A stretch of DNA of 45,526 nucleotides from Candidatus Bathyarchaeia archaeon (GTDB lineage: Archaea > Thermoproteota > Bathyarchaeia > 40CM-2-53-6 > DTGE01), in NCBI GenBank assembly GCA_038852285.1, contig JAWCKG010000013.1, positions 1 to 45,526 on the forward strand, given 5' to 3'. Below the pieces are notes generated by a model, which did not search any database, had not been told where the DNA came from, and saw only the letters and a list, made by a program, of their open reading frames with translations. The first letter of the stretch is position 1. Every line of letters starts with the position of its first letter. The position numbers and the translations under genes are program-made. Of the stretch, positions 33,826-45,526 are shown in pieces.

Positions 33826-34371
33826 TTGAGCCGTAGGGTTTACGGTTATCTATTTACAACGTTATCAGCCATCTTTGGGTTGATGGCTGTCGCCTCCCTG
33901 CTGATCGGAGCCATCGAAGCCGCACCACCCTACGTGGTTGGGGAGAACCTCATCCTCGTTGAGATTCAGCTGCTGCCAGGGGTCTACGTTAAACCCATGA
34001 CCCTCTTCACATACACCTTTTTCCTCGCCTTCGCCTTTGGCCTCTACACGCCCAACACGTTGAGGAGGGCGAGAAGCCTCAGCCCAGAAGCTCGGCGTGG
34101 CTTATACGTTTTCGCATGGTTTCTCGCCATGGCCAGTGGGTTTGAAATCCTCTACCATGTGGTTGTATGGTCCGCCGCCCTCGCCTATCAGGGGCTGCAA
34201 AACCCAGACATCATCGTCAACCCTTGGCCCCAATACAGGCTTCCCATCAACGTGGTTTTCTCAGCCAAACTGGTGGTGATGATGTTCTTCGCCTCAATAT
34301 TCGTCATCGACTACTTGAAAAGGTTGGAGGGTAAATCGAAGGCTGGAAACCAGGTTGAGGAGAAAGGCTAG
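33826..34371 (+). CDS. Small membrane protein with about four helices
   Basis: This 181-residue protein has four hydrophobic segments: LSAIFGLMAVASLLIGAIEA, MTLFTYTFFLAFAFGLYT, FAWFLAMASGFEILYHVVVW and VVFSAKLVVMMFFASIFVI. A charged tail ends KAGNQVEEKG. I recognise no family motif. The start is TTG 33826, with GGTGAGTGAGCA before it, 11 bases after the previous stop. It ends the plus-strand surface operon; its last four bases overlap the end of the convergent archaeosortase gene. A role in the same surface pathway is inferred from position. Confidence 0.6.
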   Translation: MSRRVYGYLFTTLSAIFGLMAVASLLIGAIEAAPPYVVGENLILVEIQLLPGVYVKPMTLFTYTFFLAFAFGLYTPNTLRRARSLSPEARRGLYVFAWFLAMASGFEILYHVVVWSAALAYQGLQNPDIIVNPWPQYRLPINVVFSAKLVVMMFFASIFVIDYLKRLEGKSKAGNQVEEKG

Positions 34372-35390
34372 TTTAACGCAGCCTCCGCTGGTCTTAACGC
34401 CTTTAAGGCCCGGCTTGCGAAGGCTTTTTCAACGGTAAGTGTCGAGACTAAGTAGATGACGATCCAGACGACGAATAACACCTCTCCGACGGTTTCATGG
34501 AACACCCTGAGGTCGATGTTAGAATAAACCACGGCTAAGGTGATGAGGAATATTCGGATCACGTTGACCATGAATGTTCCAGCGGCCCCCACCACTACGT
34601 ATATGAGTTTACGTTTCCGGGGGGCCTCCAATTTAACCATCAGGATCACCACTACCAGGCTGTAGATCAGCATGCTGAGGACCCCGGCGCAGGGCCAGTT
34701 AATCTCCAACACCACCATCCCCTTCAACCCATTTAAGAACAGGCGGTTTCTCTCTACGTAGACCCACGGTGGCTCAACAGCCTTTAAAGGATCCTCCACC
34801 ACGGAGACCCCTGAGACCCAGAGTAGAGAAACCACGGCTTTAACGATGAAAGGGACCACCCCAGCTAGTGCGCCGAGGGATTCATAGGGGAACAGCGCGT
34901 CTAGAAGCAGGATGATGGATGAGCCAACGCAGTATATGATGGGGGTGACCGTCTTCTTCACCGCGCTTCGGCCGTGCAACGCCGCGACGCAAGCCGCTAT
35001 GTATGCGGCGAAGGCTACGTATTCCCAAAGCCAGGTCCAGCTTAACAAACCCTCCTTCGAGATTCCTAAACCCTTTCCTAGGTTAGAGATGGCTTCCTGT
35101 AGGTGGAGAAGGTACACGGCTCCGTAGTAGAGGGATAAACCCGCCAACGCAGTGAACCATAAGAGCATCCTACGTTTAGAGAGATGTCTGAGCTTCAACT
35201 CCTCTCTGGAATCGTACCATTCGATGAGTAAGAAGAGAATGGTGAAGAGTAATCCGCCTCGTCCCTCGTTCCATCCCAGGATAAATGATTGCTCATCAAT
35301 GAGCAATAAGGCTAGAATGGGTGAGAGGGATATAAGCAACACCAGCTCGTCTCTTCGCCTGCTGAGTATTCCCTTTAACGTGAGGGGCAT
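34368..35390 (-). CDS. Archaeosortase/exosortase family transpeptidase
   Basis: This 340-residue polytopic protein has the exosortase catalytic layout. Cys234 is in NWPCAGVLSML at the start of a membrane helix, Arg279 in NVIRIFLITLAVVYS, and His298 in RVFHETVGEVLFVVW. Exosortases and archaeosortases cleave the C-terminal sorting signal of surface proteins and attach the protein to a lipid or sugar carrier; the Cys-Arg-His trio is the recognised active site. Hydrophobic segments run across the whole protein. The ATG start lies at 35390. It is convergent with, and touches, the five-gene surface operon containing GT-C-like enzymes, so substrates probably include those or unlinked surface proteins. 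Subfamily not assignable from sequence alone. Confidence 0.8.
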   Translation of the reverse strand: MPLTLKGILSRRRDELVLLISLSPILALLLIDEQSFILGWNEGRGGLLFTILFLLIEWYDSREELKLRHLSKRRMLLWFTALAGLSLYYGAVYLLHLQEAISNLGKGLGISKEGLLSWTWLWEYVAFAAYIAACVAALHGRSAVKKTVTPIIYCVGSSIILLLDALFPYESLGALAGVVPFIVKAVVSLLWVSGVSVVEDPLKAVEPPWVYVERNRLFLNGLKGMVVLEINWPCAGVLSMLIYSLVVVILMVKLEAPRKRKLIYVVVGAAGTFMVNVIRIFLITLAVVYSNIDLRVFHETVGEVLFVVWIVIYLVSTLTVEKAFASRALKALRPAEAALN

Positions 35391-35506: not shown

Positions 35507-37030
35507 TTAATCATCTGGGTTTTCGGGTTTATGGTGCATGGTCTCAAGGTTAGGGTGGATGGGAGTGGGGTGGCCTCGGAGTTGAGGTGTTTCATTTAAA
35601 TGGAAGAATAGCCTCGTCTCCCCCATGGTTTTAACCTTTAACTCCTTCACCTCCACTACGACTGGAAAGTTGTTTACCACGTCTCCTACGACAAGACAAT
35701 GTCTAGGTGGCAGGGCCTTCACCATCCTTTTCACGCTTTCTCCATCTATTTTCGTCGATTTAGAAACTGTCTCCACATCCCTTTCGTTTAGGAAGTTGAA
35801 TATGAACAGGTTGTCAGCTTGACGGTATATGTTTTCTCGGATCGTGTCAGGTTGATTTGTAATGAACGTCGTGAAAAGGCCGAGGTGTCTCATCCTAGTT
35901 ACGACGTCATCCCAGTATGTTTCCCTTAAATATAAGTGGGCTTCTTCAGCGAACAGAAACACCGCTGGAAGCCGCTTGTTGTACAGTAAGTCCTTCAGCT
36001 TGCTGAGGATCAGCTCGACGATGATCCTACGGTTCACAGAGTTTTGATCCTTCAGATCGACGACGATGGCTCCCCCCTCTCTCAGGGAATGGGACAGTTG
36101 GACGATGTCTAAACCGTCTTTATCGTCGAAAATCCTGGAGTTGATGAGGGTTGCGCATCGGGACTCCAAGGCTTCCCGGATGGTTTCATGACAACGCCAA
36201 GATTTCACCGCTTCGCCTAAGGATTCAAGGCTTAGCTTTCCATCCTGTTTGAGTCGTTGCCATATTTGGATGAAGGTTCTTATCGAGTTCCATGGGAGGT
36301 CTAGGGCGTATGCGAGAACGTTTAGGATCGAGTCCAGACTGAGAGAAGCTAGTTGAAACCTAAAGTTTACCCCAGGCTTCAACACTTTGATTCGGCTGTG
36401 ATAACGGTTCCTAGAGCCGTCGAGGTTCATGCCTAGATTAACGTATTCGCCGTTGATATCCAACACCATGCACGGCGCTCCATGGTCCAGTAAACCCAAC
36501 AGTAACGCCTTGGAGAGGTGGGATTTACCGGTGCCCTTCCTACCAGTGATGATGTTTAACTTTCCATCCAAGTTTCTCACGTCCACGTATAGGTTGGAGT
36601 CGCAGGCCACTCCCAGTTTGAGGCTCATACCGGACTCCCCCGAGCCCATCAACCGTTGCAATGGGAGCCTATCCACCTTGGAACTCGTTCGGGATGGTAA
36701 GAAGGACCCCCAGGGATTGTACTCGAGGCTTAGACTCGACCCAACCCCCCTAACCTTACATAATAGAAGCTTAGCGTCCTTGACGAAGGCGATTTGATCC
36801 GAAACTCCCATCGGGTCAACGTCGCTTCCCTCCAAGACTCCGCCAAGGATCTCGCCGCGGAGCAGGTCTTCGAAAACGCCTTGGACATTGGCGTACTGTA
36901 CATCGAAGACTTGTACGATGAGCTGTCTTCCCCCTCTGTCGGTGATGGTGAGGTATTCGCCGACGTTAACCTCCTCGCCGGGCATAGCGATTAGCCTGAC
37001 GTTGTCTCCTTCCTTAGTATAGATCTTCAT
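35507..37030 (-). CDS. herA: HerA-family bipolar DNA helicase/translocase
   Basis: This 507-residue ATPase has a beta-barrel N-terminal domain (HAS domain, residues about 1-110) and a RecA/FtsK-like core. It has Walker A TGRKGTGKSHLSKALL (residues 162-177), MVLDINGEYVNLG, a Walker B region VFLFAEEAHLYLRE, and the late RQADNLFIFNFLNERD and HCLVVGDVV. HerA forms a hexamer that moves DNA to NurA nuclease during end resection in homologous recombination. It is the last gene of the operon, 30 bases after nurA. The protein ends with a non-conserved tail. No Mre11 or Rad50 gene is nearby. Confidence 0.88.
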   Translation of the reverse strand: MKIYTKEGDNVRLIAMPGEEVNVGEYLTITDRGGRQLIVQVFDVQYANVQGVFEDLLRGEILGGVLEGSDVDPMGVSDQIAFVKDAKLLLCKVRGVGSSLSLEYNPWGSFLPSRTSSKVDRLPLQRLMGSGESGMSLKLGVACDSNLYVDVRNLDGKLNIITGRKGTGKSHLSKALLLGLLDHGAPCMVLDINGEYVNLGMNLDGSRNRYHSRIKVLKPGVNFRFQLASLSLDSILNVLAYALDLPWNSIRTFIQIWQRLKQDGKLSLESLGEAVKSWRCHETIREALESRCATLINSRIFDDKDGLDIVQLSHSLREGGAIVVDLKDQNSVNRRIIVELILSKLKDLLYNKRLPAVFLFAEEAHLYLRETYWDDVVTRMRHLGLFTTFITNQPDTIRENIYRQADNLFIFNFLNERDVETVSKSTKIDGESVKRMVKALPPRHCLVVGDVVNNFPVVVEVKELKVKTMGETRLFFHLNETPQLRGHPTPIHPNLETMHHKPENPDD

Positions 37031-37060
37031 TTAACTCGGCCTCTCTCAGTTGGATAGGGG

Positions 37061-38122
37061 TCATGTGAACGGTCCAAAGAGAATCTTTCTGACCTCAAAC
37101 TCCTCCTTCACCTCCACGCTGAACTTAACGGTCACATAGCTTCTCATTCCCAGAATTTCGTTAAGCGTGAAGGATGAGAGGATATGGGCCAGCCTTAGGG
37201 TTTCAGGGTATCCGTGGTCATGAAGGTCGTTGCCGGCGAGGAGCTCGATGGCTCTCAAGTCATCTTCTACGCTTCCCCGGGAGCTTATGTCCAATCTGAA
37301 CGTTAAGCCGTCGTTGGTCATCTTAGCCACGTAGACCCGGCCTAGAAGATGGATGGGATGTGTTGGAAACCTTTTCCGCATGAAATCGTCTAAGCATACG
37401 GCGGAGGCTTCGTCCTCCCCGCGGATCAGCTGGGTAATCTTACCTCCATCGGCTAGAACCTGAGTATCCTTAGAAACACCAATCACCGTGTTCCGGTTGG
37501 CCGCCGCGGTTTGGAGAATCTCCTTTAAACTCCTCGCAGGGTTATCGGGTGTCCCCGCCGTCAGTGAACCGTCGAAAAGGATGAGGGAATCTTCGAACAC
37601 CTCGACCACCGCCCTCTGCAGAGTCCTTTCCAAACGGTTCCTCATGATGGATATGGCCCTTGCGTTGTATGAGGGTTCCCCTCCATTCCAAGGCTCATCC
37701 TCCGACGCAGAGTCATCCACTTCCAAAAGGGTGATGAGGGGCCCATAACGGTAGAACCGGTATTTACCAGCGCTCTTCCATACCAAGCATCCTCTGAAAG
37801 CCGTTAATACGCCGCCTTCCACAGGACCTAGTCTAGCGGTGGAAACGTCTACAGCCGCCACTTTAACGGGCTTTGAGAAAGGATTGATCCTTAATCTGCG
37901 AAGCGCCATGTCCTCCGCGAGACGTATTGTGCTCCCAAGGTTTAACTCACCGCTGTGGTTGAAGGTTCGCCAGTCGTTTTTAAAGGTCTCTGAAGGGGGG
38001 TTGATGCTTTGAATCCTTTTGAGGCTTCCTTGAAGATGTGCTCTCTCAATTTCGAGTCTCTGGGACAGTAAACTACTTATTTCACTTTCATCAAATATGT
38101 TTTGGGTGCGGTGGTCTTCCAT
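37061..38122 (-). CDS. nurA: NurA-domain nuclease
   Basis: This protein has 353 residues from ATG 38122, chosen because GGGGTGA is seven bases upstream; a longer start at 38158 lies inside an inverted repeat. The NurA core has VKVAAVDVSTARLGPVEG near residues 85-102 (counted from 38122). The usual motif is VDGS; here Gly is Val, but the catalytic Asp is kept. A second core block is SLILFDGSLTAG, and ARSLKEILQTAAANRNTVIGVSKD follows. NurA is a manganese-dependent 5'-3' nuclease partnering HerA. The herA gene follows directly. Unusually, three small winged-helix genes lie upstream in the same operon. Confidence 0.85.
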   Translation of the reverse strand: MEDHRTQNIFDESEISSLLSQRLEIERAHLQGSLKRIQSINPPSETFKNDWRTFNHSGELNLGSTIRLAEDMALRRLRINPFSKPVKVAAVDVSTARLGPVEGGVLTAFRGCLVWKSAGKYRFYRYGPLITLLEVDDSASEDEPWNGGEPSYNARAISIMRNRLERTLQRAVVEVFEDSLILFDGSLTAGTPDNPARSLKEILQTAAANRNTVIGVSKDTQVLADGGKITQLIRGEDEASAVCLDDFMRKRFPTHPIHLLGRVYVAKMTNDGLTFRLDISSRGSVEDDLRAIELLAGNDLHDHGYPETLRLAHILSSFTLNEILGMRSYVTVKFSVEVKEEFEVRKILFGPFT

Positions 38123-38141
38123 TTTTACGTCACCCCTAAGT

Positions 38142-38158
38142 GTGGGATTTTCTCCCAC
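38142..38158. promoter_or_regulatory. Inverted repeat in the nurA leader
   Basis: GTGGGA-TTTTC-TCCCAC is a perfect six-base palindrome with a five-base loop, ending 20 bases before the nurA ATG. As RNA it would form a hairpin just upstream of the ribosome-binding site; as DNA it could be an operator. No TATA box is obvious close to it. Confidence 0.35.
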
Positions 38159-38194
38159 AACCGCCGCACCTTTCGGATGGCGGTAACGCGGGCC

Positions 38195-38710
38195 TCACCC
38201 CTCCTTTAAGCCGGCTTGTGGACTTTTAACCCCCTTTAAGACGTCTTCCATCCACTTCACCCCTTTCACCGTCGCTTTGTATTCTCCCTTGGATACCCTT
38301 TCCACTAGGTTTGTCTTCACCATGTAAGCGAGGGTGTTTCGAATGGTTTTAGGCGCCTTGTCAGAGTGTTGGATGATTTCATCCATGGTTAATGTTTCCT
38401 TTTCTCTTAATCCCATTTTGCCGGCGATGTGGGAGGCCAGGAGCATTGCTCCGATGAGTTGGTCTGTGGAATCGGGTTGCCGGAGGAAGATGAAGCCTCC
38501 ATCCTCTGTGATTTTAATGTATCCTGTTAGGGTTTCGATTAAAGCCGAGAGGTCGGGTGTGTAAAGGAGCTTTGAAGCGTAGTGGAAGGCTGGGTAGGCT
38601 TTTGCGAGGAAGTTGAGGATGAACTTGACAGCGTCTTCCACCGGGCCCTCGAAGGTTTGGGTGAGGCCTTTCGCCTCTACTGTGAGCTTTATCTTTTTCT
38701 CCTCCTCCAT
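38195..38710 (-). CDS. Winged-helix paralogue 3 of the NurA-HerA operon
   Basis: This 171-residue protein belongs to a set of three tandem paralogues. Its N-terminal half is an alpha/beta domain: strand KIKLTVEAKGLTQTF, then EGPVEDAVKFILNFLAKAYP. A strand KITEDGGFIFL leads into DQLIGAMLLASHIAGKMG, followed by a winged helix (MDEIIQHSDKAPKTIRNTLAYM) with wing VERVSKGEYKATVKG. It looks like a DNA-binding regulator with a ligand or dimer domain. GAGGTGA is seven bases before the ATG. It is third in order, with nurA 72 bases on. I recognise no named family. Confidence 0.72.
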   Translation of the reverse strand: MEEEKKIKLTVEAKGLTQTFEGPVEDAVKFILNFLAKAYPAFHYASKLLYTPDLSALIETLTGYIKITEDGGFIFLRQPDSTDQLIGAMLLASHIAGKMGLREKETLTMDEIIQHSDKAPKTIRNTLAYMVKTNLVERVSKGEYKATVKGVKWMEDVLKGVKSPQAGLKEG

Positions 38711-38717
38711 CGTTGTT

Positions 38718-39233
38718 TCACCTCTTCTTTACTTGGGCCACCACTTCGTCTAGGAATCGTTGAACGCCATAGGTGGTGGCTCTGTATTCTCCTTTGCCAA
38801 CTCTTTCAGCTAAGCCTTCGGCGCACATCTCGGACAGCCTACCCGCCACGGTTCCAGCCGTCTTCTTGGTGGCTGAGATGATGTCGTTGATGAATAGGGT
38901 GTCTCGGTCCATTCTACCTAGGTAGAATCCGAACCTCGCCTTCGCTAGATGTAGGATTATGAGGTCTCTGTCCGAGAGCTTTGAGGTATCGGACGTGATG
39001 ACGACTCCCTCCGGCGTGGCGGTGAACACGCCTTCGCAGCTGGATAGGAATCTTTCAACGTCCAGGTCTAAGGAGACTTTGGATATCAGGTCGATTTTAG
39101 GATATATGGAGGACACGAATTTTATCACCTCCCGGACGACGTAGTCCACGTCGCCCATAATCCTCTTCTCCATTCCCCGGCATCGAACCGTTACCTCCAG
39201 CCTTCCTTCAACCGCTTCATCGTCACCTTCCAA
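38718..39233 (-). CDS. Winged-helix paralogue 2 of the NurA-HerA operon
   Basis: This 171-residue protein has the same plan as its neighbours. The N-terminal strand-helix is RLEVTVRCRGMEKRIM with VDYVVREVIKFVSSIYP. The middle strand ATPEGVVITSDTSKL leads to DRDLIILHLAKARFGFYLG, and a winged helix follows: INDIISATKKTAGTVAGRLSEM, then AERVGKGEYRATTYG. The phrase VxKGEY[KR]AT is shared with paralogue 3. It begins with TTG immediately after the stop of paralogue 1 and ends eight bases before paralogue 3, so translation is coupled. No family name or partner is recognised; DNA binding is inferred from the fold. Confidence 0.72.
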   Translation of the reverse strand: MEGDDEAVEGRLEVTVRCRGMEKRIMGDVDYVVREVIKFVSSIYPKIDLISKVSLDLDVERFLSSCEGVFTATPEGVVITSDTSKLSDRDLIILHLAKARFGFYLGRMDRDTLFINDIISATKKTAGTVAGRLSEMCAEGLAERVGKGEYRATTYGVQRFLDEVVAQVKKR

Positions 39234-39692
39234 TCAGCCTACACCCTTCAACTTCCTTACCAGGTCCTCAACCCATCTTTTCCCAGCGGCCGTCAGCTTA
39301 TAGGCGTCGCCCTCCTTGTAGGCGAAGCCCTCTCGTTTCAGTTCGCTGATCCTGCTGGCGAAGCCCGCGGAGAGGAACCCGCTGAGGCTTAGGTATCTTC
39401 CTAGGTCCCTGGGCCTCAGACCCCGACTGGACGTGTAGAGAAGTAAACCCACAGCCTCCCTGTCGGTGATTCGGTCTCGAGGCACCGTAATGACGGGGCC
39501 GTCGGCGGTGTTTTCCACAAGGCCTTTTAAGGATTCTTCGATTTCGGTTTCGCTGAGCTGTCTGGATACGACGTCGTCTATGACATCTAACCACTCGGGG
39601 AAGTTTTGTAGGCTGGCGACGATTTCGTCGAAGGATTCCCCCTCTATTTCCACGTTTCCATATGGCCTGTGCAGTGTTAGCTTCACCTTCAT
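39234..39692 (-). CDS. Winged-helix paralogue 1, first gene of the NurA-HerA operon
   Basis: This 152-residue protein is the shortest of the three paralogues. It has KLTLHRPYGNVEIEGESFDEI, then TADGPVITVPRDRITDREAVG, and a C-terminal winged helix (LRPRDLGRYLSLSGFLSAGFASRISELKREG) with wing EGDAYKLTAAG. The ATG lies only about ten bases after the predicted transcription start from a TATA box at 39725-39733, so the mRNA is nearly leaderless. A TATACG palindrome array lies just upstream of that box and could be its own binding site, which would make the protein an autoregulator; that is inference. Confidence 0.72.
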   Translation of the reverse strand: MKVKLTLHRPYGNVEIEGESFDEIVASLQNFPEWLDVIDDVVSRQLSETEIEESLKGLVENTADGPVITVPRDRITDREAVGLLLYTSSRGLRPRDLGRYLSLSGFLSAGFASRISELKREGFAYKEGDAYKLTAAGKRWVEDLVRKLKGVG

Positions 39693-39724
39693 GGTTATGC
39701 TCGTTGTATGTTGTGTAGGAATTA

Positions 39725-39733
39725 ATACTTAAA
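39725..39733 (-). promoter_or_regulatory. TATA box of the winged-helix/nurA/herA operon
   Basis: The minus strand reads TTTAAGTAT, with its centre about 37 bases before the ATG at 39692. It predicts a transcription start near 39702. Confidence 0.5.
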
Positions 39734-39738
39734 TCTTT

Positions 39739-39764
39739 CGTATAAAGTATACGTAACGTGTATA
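39739..39764. promoter_or_regulatory. Palindromic operator array upstream of the winged-helix/nurA/herA promoter
   Basis: CGTATA-aag-TATACG (39739-39753) is a perfect six-base inverted repeat. TATACG-taa-CGTGTATA (39748-39764) is an overlapping second one sharing the middle half-site. The array lies just upstream of the TATA box on the operon side, a place suited to a regulator touching TBP/TFB. The palindrome form fits a dimeric winged-helix protein. Confidence 0.5.
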
Positions 39765-40121
39765 ATTAACTTATTTTCAAAAAGAGGCCTCAGAACCAAT
39801 TTCAGGCTCATGTCCTCGTTGCCTTAAGGAGCTATTCAAACTCTACAGAGGATCCTCGCCAAAAAGCTCCGCGGCTGCGATTGAATCTGAGGGGCGTAGG
39901 CTGGGTTAGGCCACTCCGATTAACGGGAAGATGAAGTGCGATTTGGATGCGAGGCAATCTTTTAACACACACTTCGACCCTCTAAAACAAGTTTAGGGAG
40001 TGCGTGACGGCCATTAACCGCCTTCAGCGTTATGAAGTAAAGTTCTCCAGAGTTTGGTGAAATCGTAATTAACCATCTCCAGCCCAATCAAATCGGTGTT
40101 CCTGCTGTTTTAAACGTAAAG

Positions 40122-44533: not shown

Positions 44534-45526
44534 TTACTCTTCTTTCTGTGGGTTTATGCCTGTAAACCAGTTAAACAGGTCTGTTTTGTCTAGGCTTGGG
44601 TCGGATAAGAGGATGGCCTCCACTTCCTCCACGAATTCCTTAGCGAACAGGGATGGTAGGGTGACGTTTTCGTCGATGAGGTCGATGGGGTATGGGAACC
44701 CAGTAGCGGGGCTGCAGTTTTCTTTCGTGAAGTAGCCCGCTACTTCTTCAACGGACATGTCACGGTGCATTTCAAAGCAGAAGGGTGGAGCCGCGGCGTG
44801 GGGTCGATGGAAGTATCGGTGGATTTTCAGCAGTGGAGCAGGGCTCATGTTGAGATTTGCTTTCACCCCTTGAGCGAACTCCCTCCTGGCTTCCTTTAAC
44901 GCGGATTCTGGGTCCGAGTATCCGGAACGAGACATGACGCCCTTCAACAACGTATAGTATTGGTATTCTTCTGGCTTCTGGAATAGTGATCCATAGTCGA
45001 ACCACTTACCCTCAGGCATGAGATAGGTGAGGATGGCTCGGTCGTTTCGGTGGAGACATCGGTTAACCCCCTCCTTGTAGGCGATCCATCCGTCGATGGC
45101 CGATGTTCTCACCCGTTTTACCACTCCCACAGCCCTCCGGGACTCCAGAACCCGTAAAGAGAGGTCTCTAACCTCGTCGATGAGGTCCGAAATCCTCCTG
45201 TACCCGTCTGTTTCAAGCCTTTTTCTTCGAATGACGTTGCAGCCGGCTCTGAACCCGAAGAAGCTTCCATCCAGCAAAACGAGGTCAACACCCTTCTCGT
45301 CCAGGCATTTGAGGGCGACCTCCCTTTCCAGCTTGGTGGTGAGAAGCCTCAGGGTTTTCACGGTGACCTCGGGGTTTCCCAGCTGGTCTCTGCTTAGGCT
45401 TCCAGCTTGATAATCCTCGTCTATAATTCTCCCCCGATGGAAAATCATGTAACCAGCCGCGTATGTTCCATAGCGAGCGCCCACCCTCTCGCTTAACACA
45501 GGGCTGTCGGATCCATCAACCGCGGC
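44534..45526 (-). CDS. Second NurA-family nuclease; N-terminus cut by window edge
   Basis: The frame continues to the right edge, and the first visible residues read AAVDGSDSPVLSERVG, the canonical NurA catalytic motif VDGS. Later blocks VDLVLLDGSFFGF and LMSRSG-like segments (GVMSRSGYSDPESALKEA), and the C-terminal region with FEMHRDMSVEEVAGYF and LPSLFAKEFVEEVEAILL, also fit NurA. About 330 residues are seen; the N-terminus is missing. It is a nuclease, unlike the operonic copy in keeping VDGS. No herA neighbour is visible on the left, but one could lie outside the window. Confidence 0.75.
   Translation of the reverse strand, partial: AAVDGSDSPVLSERVGARYGTYAAGYMIFHRGRIIDEDYQAGSLSRDQLGNPEVTVKTLRLLTTKLEREVALKCLDEKGVDLVLLDGSFFGFRAGCNVIRRKRLETDGYRRISDLIDEVRDLSLRVLESRRAVGVVKRVRTSAIDGWIAYKEGVNRCLHRNDRAILTYLMPEGKWFDYGSLFQKPEEYQYYTLLKGVMSRSGYSDPESALKEARREFAQGVKANLNMSPAPLLKIHRYFHRPHAAAPPFCFEMHRDMSVEEVAGYFTKENCSPATGFPYPIDLIDENVTLPSLFAKEFVEEVEAILLSDPSLDKTDLFNWFTGINPQKEE

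Follow-up and report, generated by a model that had tools for sequence, protein, structure and literature searches.

In the archaeal HerA-NurA pair, as known from Sulfolobus and Pyrococcus, nurA and herA are adjacent, NurA has its catalytic residues and HerA its Walker motifs, and all of these features are shared by the operon considered here, some relatives of which also have mre11-rad50 downstream. To our knowledge archaea lack LexA and the control of DNA-end resection in them is largely open. Archaeal autoregulators of the MarR/Lrs14 type have a winged helix and a palindromic site at their own promoter. The window, i.e. the whole stretch of 45,526 nucleotides that was analyzed, is one entire contig (C13) of a 1.72 Mb genome whose closest relatives are Bathyarchaeia (nearly all of the best 80 GTDB loci). 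It differs from Sulfolobus and Pyrococcus in that its nurA and herA stand behind winged-helix genes, mre11-rad50 lies outside it, and its HerA-like protein scores only 19-21 bits with the NCBIfam HerA equivalogs, far under their cut-offs of 970 and 800. That protein appears on its scores to belong to a divergent HerA-like clade and not to the equivalog. The operon can be counted among NurA-HerA operons, its HerA being divergent and its winged-helix layer undescribed.

Five minus-strand genes, WH1, WH2, WH3, nurA and herA-like, form the operon within 35507-39692 according to the ORF calls (Table 1). The gaps between them, in operon order, are 0, 7, 36 and 30 bases, with the third becoming 72 if nurA starts at its ATG; on that assumption the layout and the spacing of 0, 7, 72 and 30 given in the first-pass annotation are confirmed. 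NurA clears its Pfam cut-off (34.3 bits versus 21), and the conservation of D104, E177, D196, K230 and H325 in 136 relatives means that the catalytic residues are kept. The HerA-like protein clears DUF87 (52 bits versus the Pfam cut-off of 23.2), matches the HerA structure 4d2i (E 2.6e-10) and has a Walker A motif, GRKGTGKSH, and a Walker B motif, FLFAEEAH, that are strongly conserved among its relatives. A HerA-like ATPase core is also present in the DNA-import ATPases CedD and CedB (PMC11868833), and CedD is the best NCBIfam match (NF053655, 43 bits). The match is far under the cut-off of 600, and the protein here is encoded together with NurA, of which there is no mention in the paper on CedD; a CedD-type import ATPase was rejected for its score and for the nurA partner. 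Directly downstream of herA, at 34368-35390 on the minus strand, is a gene for a thaumarchaeosortase-like membrane protein (TIGR04297, 159 bits, below the cut-off of 250).

Table 1. Positions of the operon genes, of the elements at the WH1 promoter and of the short divergent gene (window numbering unless a locus is named)
Feature	Position	Strand	Remarks
WH1	39234..39692	-	152 aa; N-terminal beta-hairpin/helix domain and winged helix; likely autoregulator
WH2	38718..39233	-	171 aa paralogue; TTG start
WH3	38195..38710	-	171 aa paralogue; its orthologues in the order stand directly before nurA
NurA nuclease	37061..38158	-	GTG start (longest frame); ATG at 38122 also possible; PF09376
HerA-like ATPase	35507..37030	-	507 aa; DUF87
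Palindrome TATACGTAACGTGTATA	39748..39764		ACGTWACGT core (39751-39759); candidate operator of WH1
BRE/TATA-like element CGAAAGATTTAAGTA	39726..39740	-	next to the palindrome on its downstream side; TATA-like boxes of eight relatives align with it; putative
ACGTTACGT	within 39720-39780		candidate WH1 target at the WH1 promoter
Short divergent gene	L062:4417-4824 and equivalents		beside nurA in most Bathyarchaeia

None of WH1, WH2 and WH3 is above cut-off in any Pfam or NCBIfam family. They are nevertheless homologous, as a single profile picks up all three in the genome and tblastn searches with WH2 and WH3 recover the respective other protein together with their orthologues. Profile comparison with the PDB matches the C-terminal 60 residues of the small proteins to winged-helix structures, and the predicted models of WH1 (pLDDT 83.8) and WH2 (pLDDT 89.1) have the same order of elements, namely a first beta hairpin accompanied by helices, then another hairpin and finally the winged helix, in keeping with the single architecture first proposed for the three. 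For the N-terminal beta-hairpin/helix domain the fold search gave nothing specific and no known relatives; structural relatives were found only for the winged helix, at weak significance. In the PDB the WH2 winged helix is most similar to 4rs8 (TM 0.72-0.74 normalized to target length, E 2e-3 to 4e-3). This structure, which was also found by sequence, is of AspA, a winged-helix protein that binds the centromere of plasmid pNOB8. AspA, however, is without the N-terminal domain and is part of a partition system, and the match is weak, with MarR-like folds scoring nearly as well. WH1 shares with the MarR/Lrs14 types both the winged helix and a palindrome at its own promoter, but the WH proteins score sub-threshold on those profiles, occur as tandem paralogues and have an unrelated N-terminal domain. 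A literature search found no publication describing these winged-helix proteins, though description elsewhere is possible.

The palindrome that had been noticed ahead of the first gene is indeed there, and it is the strongest clue: TATAC-N7-GTATA has a single match in the window and no match in 100 shuffles. Across the 38 whole genomes searched in the order, ACGTWACGTRTAY is present at 10 sites (its reversed control pattern has 6 matches), of which nine precede the WH1 start by 60-76 bp; the tenth, in G018, is inside an apparent coding region and was left uncounted. Several loci of the order have an extra WH1-like gene, WH0, further upstream, and as the site in two such genomes (G029 and G030) is between WH0 and WH1, it belongs to WH1. 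In the tree WH1-proper is separate from WH0 (WH1 clade 100/98). Taking one WH1-proper gene per lineage, three other classes included, TTACGT or ACGTAA is found within 100 bp upstream of all 13 (25 sites, against 0.83 expected after shuffling), compared with five of 90 control genes, i.e. other genes in the same loci (5.6%), none of the 11 WH0 genes and, in the other Bathyarchaeia clade, 15% of the genes for WH1. The presumed recognition helix is GFASRLSELKREG in WH1-proper, VPARLNEMTKRG in the other clade and VRARASELRREG in WH0; since tree, helix signature and TTACGT counts agree, WH1 subclade, helix type and site are co-distributed. This comparative evidence gives good support to autoregulation by WH1, and WH1 itself is, we infer, the protein that binds the TTACGT site. 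The sign of regulation may differ between lineages, as the TTACGT sites are downstream of the TATA-like box in three distant classes (L131, L140 and L141) and upstream of it in the order of the window. At L141:6500-6540 there are four tandem TTTACGT repeats between the TATA-like box and the WH1 start codon.

WH genes stand directly before nurA-herA, as WH-WH-(WH)-NurA-HerA, in all 19 loci of the order that have enough flank, the window included, and the HerA of the operon is present in 31 of 38 genomes of the order and 120 of 397 of the phylum. Counting by hand from L131-L170, linkage of WH genes to nurA was seen in 8 of 14 loci of the class outside the order and, within about 5 kb, in 21 of 26 loci outside the class, with L131, L140 and L141 having the same directly abutting WH-WH-NurA-HerA order. 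Constant linkage is ruled out, as many Bathyarchaeia carry the WH pair elsewhere; in several other families it is away from nurA-herA and often by genes that, from a reading of their sequences, are gatD/gatE-like. Two observations that would have spoken against a system had been named at the outset, paralogues occurring mostly away from nurA and herA and structure prediction without a common fold; neither was made, though in several Bathyarchaeia families the paralogues are elsewhere. In three genomes without a match to the operon-HerA profile (L185, L188 and L189) the WH cluster adjoins a different NurA-HerA clade, with the neighboring NurA scoring 71, 67 and 50 bits in Pfam. The HerA-like gene next to the WH cluster in the last of these contains an intein (L189:1842-4352).

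Loss of WH2 tends to accompany loss of HerA. Among genomes of the class WH2 is in 49 of the 58 with HerA and in 4 of the 20 without (Fisher p 3e-7, a statistic that ignores relatedness), and in genus g24 it is in all four HerA-positive and none of the eight HerA-negative genomes, even if some of the losses may be assembly gaps. As herA and WH2 are on different contigs in all four of the former, joint deletion of neighbors does not explain the co-loss. The four genomes that have WH2 without the operon HerA all keep some NurA, and genus g20 has kept WH2/WH3 without the operon HerA. WH1, unlike WH2, persists in genomes without any NurA, and so has targets or roles besides nurA-herA. That persistence, the commonness of winged helices and the many genomes with the WH pair beside gatD/gatE-like genes are what might be expected of a general transcription-factor family that neighbors nurA-herA by chance, the linkage being ancestral gene order with no shared function. 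Such an origin is improbable given that the linkage recurs with the second NurA-HerA clade, that WH2 is co-lost with HerA and that the distant classes have the directly abutting order.

The same co-loss, seen even in a genus with herA and WH2 on separate contigs, would also suit WH proteins that are structural subunits or DNA-end adaptors of NurA-HerA(-Mre11-Rad50), binding DNA non-specifically and docking on HerA or NurA, with the palindrome belonging to an unrelated regulator. The presence of the cluster beside two NurA-HerA clades, the keeping of several paralogues side by side and a novel N-terminal domain that could serve as docking surface are in keeping with such a role. It is nevertheless rather unlikely, as throughout the phylum the operator goes with one WH1 subclade and one type of recognition helix, which is what a sequence-specific autoregulator should show, and as WH1 persists where NurA does not.

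HerA-nuclease pairs are known in anti-phage systems, and there are weak to moderate matches of the HerA-like protein to the PADLOC models mad8 and HerA; both would suit a defence module that degrades invading DNA by means of NurA-HerA, the winged-helix proteins being its sensors. Such a module is very improbable. The operon is near-universal and syntenic in the order, the small proteins have only sub-threshold matches to defence models, the HerA-like protein fails the NCBIfam HerA_antiphage equivalog (35 bits versus a cut-off of 800), and a scan of IMG/VR viral contigs for HerA found none, so that a viral origin was rejected as well. Many relatives moreover have mre11-rad50 downstream of herA (L059, L066, L096, L099, L109, L159 and L161 among them). 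Order-wide synteny, the sub-threshold matches of the small proteins and the lack of a HerA relative in that viral scan led to the rejection of a defence island, and the locus is chromosomal core of Bathyarchaeia, neither a mobile nor a defence island. Of the functions suggested in the first-pass annotation, regulators or DNA-binding adaptors has held up, with conserved linkage, two HerA-NurA clades, WH2/HerA co-loss and the operator at the WH1 promoter in its favor, and the distinct defence module has not; its remark that mre11 and rad50 are missing from the window was correct, the two being together on contig C6 of the same genome.

A second NurA, of another clade, is encoded at the end of the window (44534-45526, minus strand), with its 5′ end cut by the end of the contig. 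Its partner may be a HerA-like gene that is truncated where contig C12 begins (L200:2-1450), because G026 has an intact herA-nurA pair whose NurA is 35% identical to the second NurA; an intact accessory herA-nurA pair is at L211:5200-7855. With the second NurA in 3 of 38 genomes of the order versus 31 of 38 for the HerA of the operon, it is the operon that is the core pair and not the accessory one. A further HerA-like ATPase, on contig C22 of the same genome (L199:2512-7393), directly follows a type IV pilus ATPase-like gene and two membrane-protein genes.

The reading that we consider probable, with some reserve, is that the operon serves resection and has dedicated regulators of the winged-helix type, with WH1 working at the promoter of its own gene and WH2 and WH3 as co-regulators or adaptors. 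HerA would pump DNA and NurA degrade one strand, with the pair feeding homologous recombination together with the Mre11-Rad50 encoded elsewhere in the genome. WH1 would bind TTACGT half-sites in its own promoter, here as the ACGTWACGT palindrome 60-76 bp before the start codon, and, because it is its own promoter that is bound, would set the expression of the whole operon, whether by repression or by activation and possibly in response to DNA damage. WH2 and WH3 would be functional partners of NurA-HerA, either as co-regulators with WH1 or as DNA-binding adaptors. One operator does not explain three paralogues, and that counts against this proposal.

A short fourth relative (about 135 aa) is found outside the order, divergent from nurA in most loci; by alignment its N-terminal part is similar to that of the WH family and its helix-turn-helix is different. 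In the rest of the class the promoter region that it shares with nurA contains the palindrome TTGYGCA-N9-TGCRCAA, abutting the TATA box. In 2.03 Mb of loci all 30 strict sites and 55 of 56 relaxed ones are at that promoter, the set being enriched for the nurA region and including some duplicates, so that these counts are not a genome-wide density. There is none in the 21 loci of the order, and the short gene is in only 2 of 38 of its genomes. Replacement of the short gene and TTGYGCA-N9-TGCRCAA by WH1 and ACGTWACGT before the same machine would show regulatory turnover with unusual clarity. More broadly, and tentatively, as we hold it possible though less probable than not, the multi-copy family (WH0-WH3 and the short divergent gene) may be a dedicated control and adaptor layer of archaeal end resection, in Bathyarchaeia and other classes, that switches nurA-herA via lineage-specific operators and works in the resection complex, which would make it functionally the archaeal counterpart of an SOS-type repair switch. 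With regulators tied to nurA-herA and a conserved site of 9-17 bp at a near-fixed position, the control of resection in archaea would become testable.
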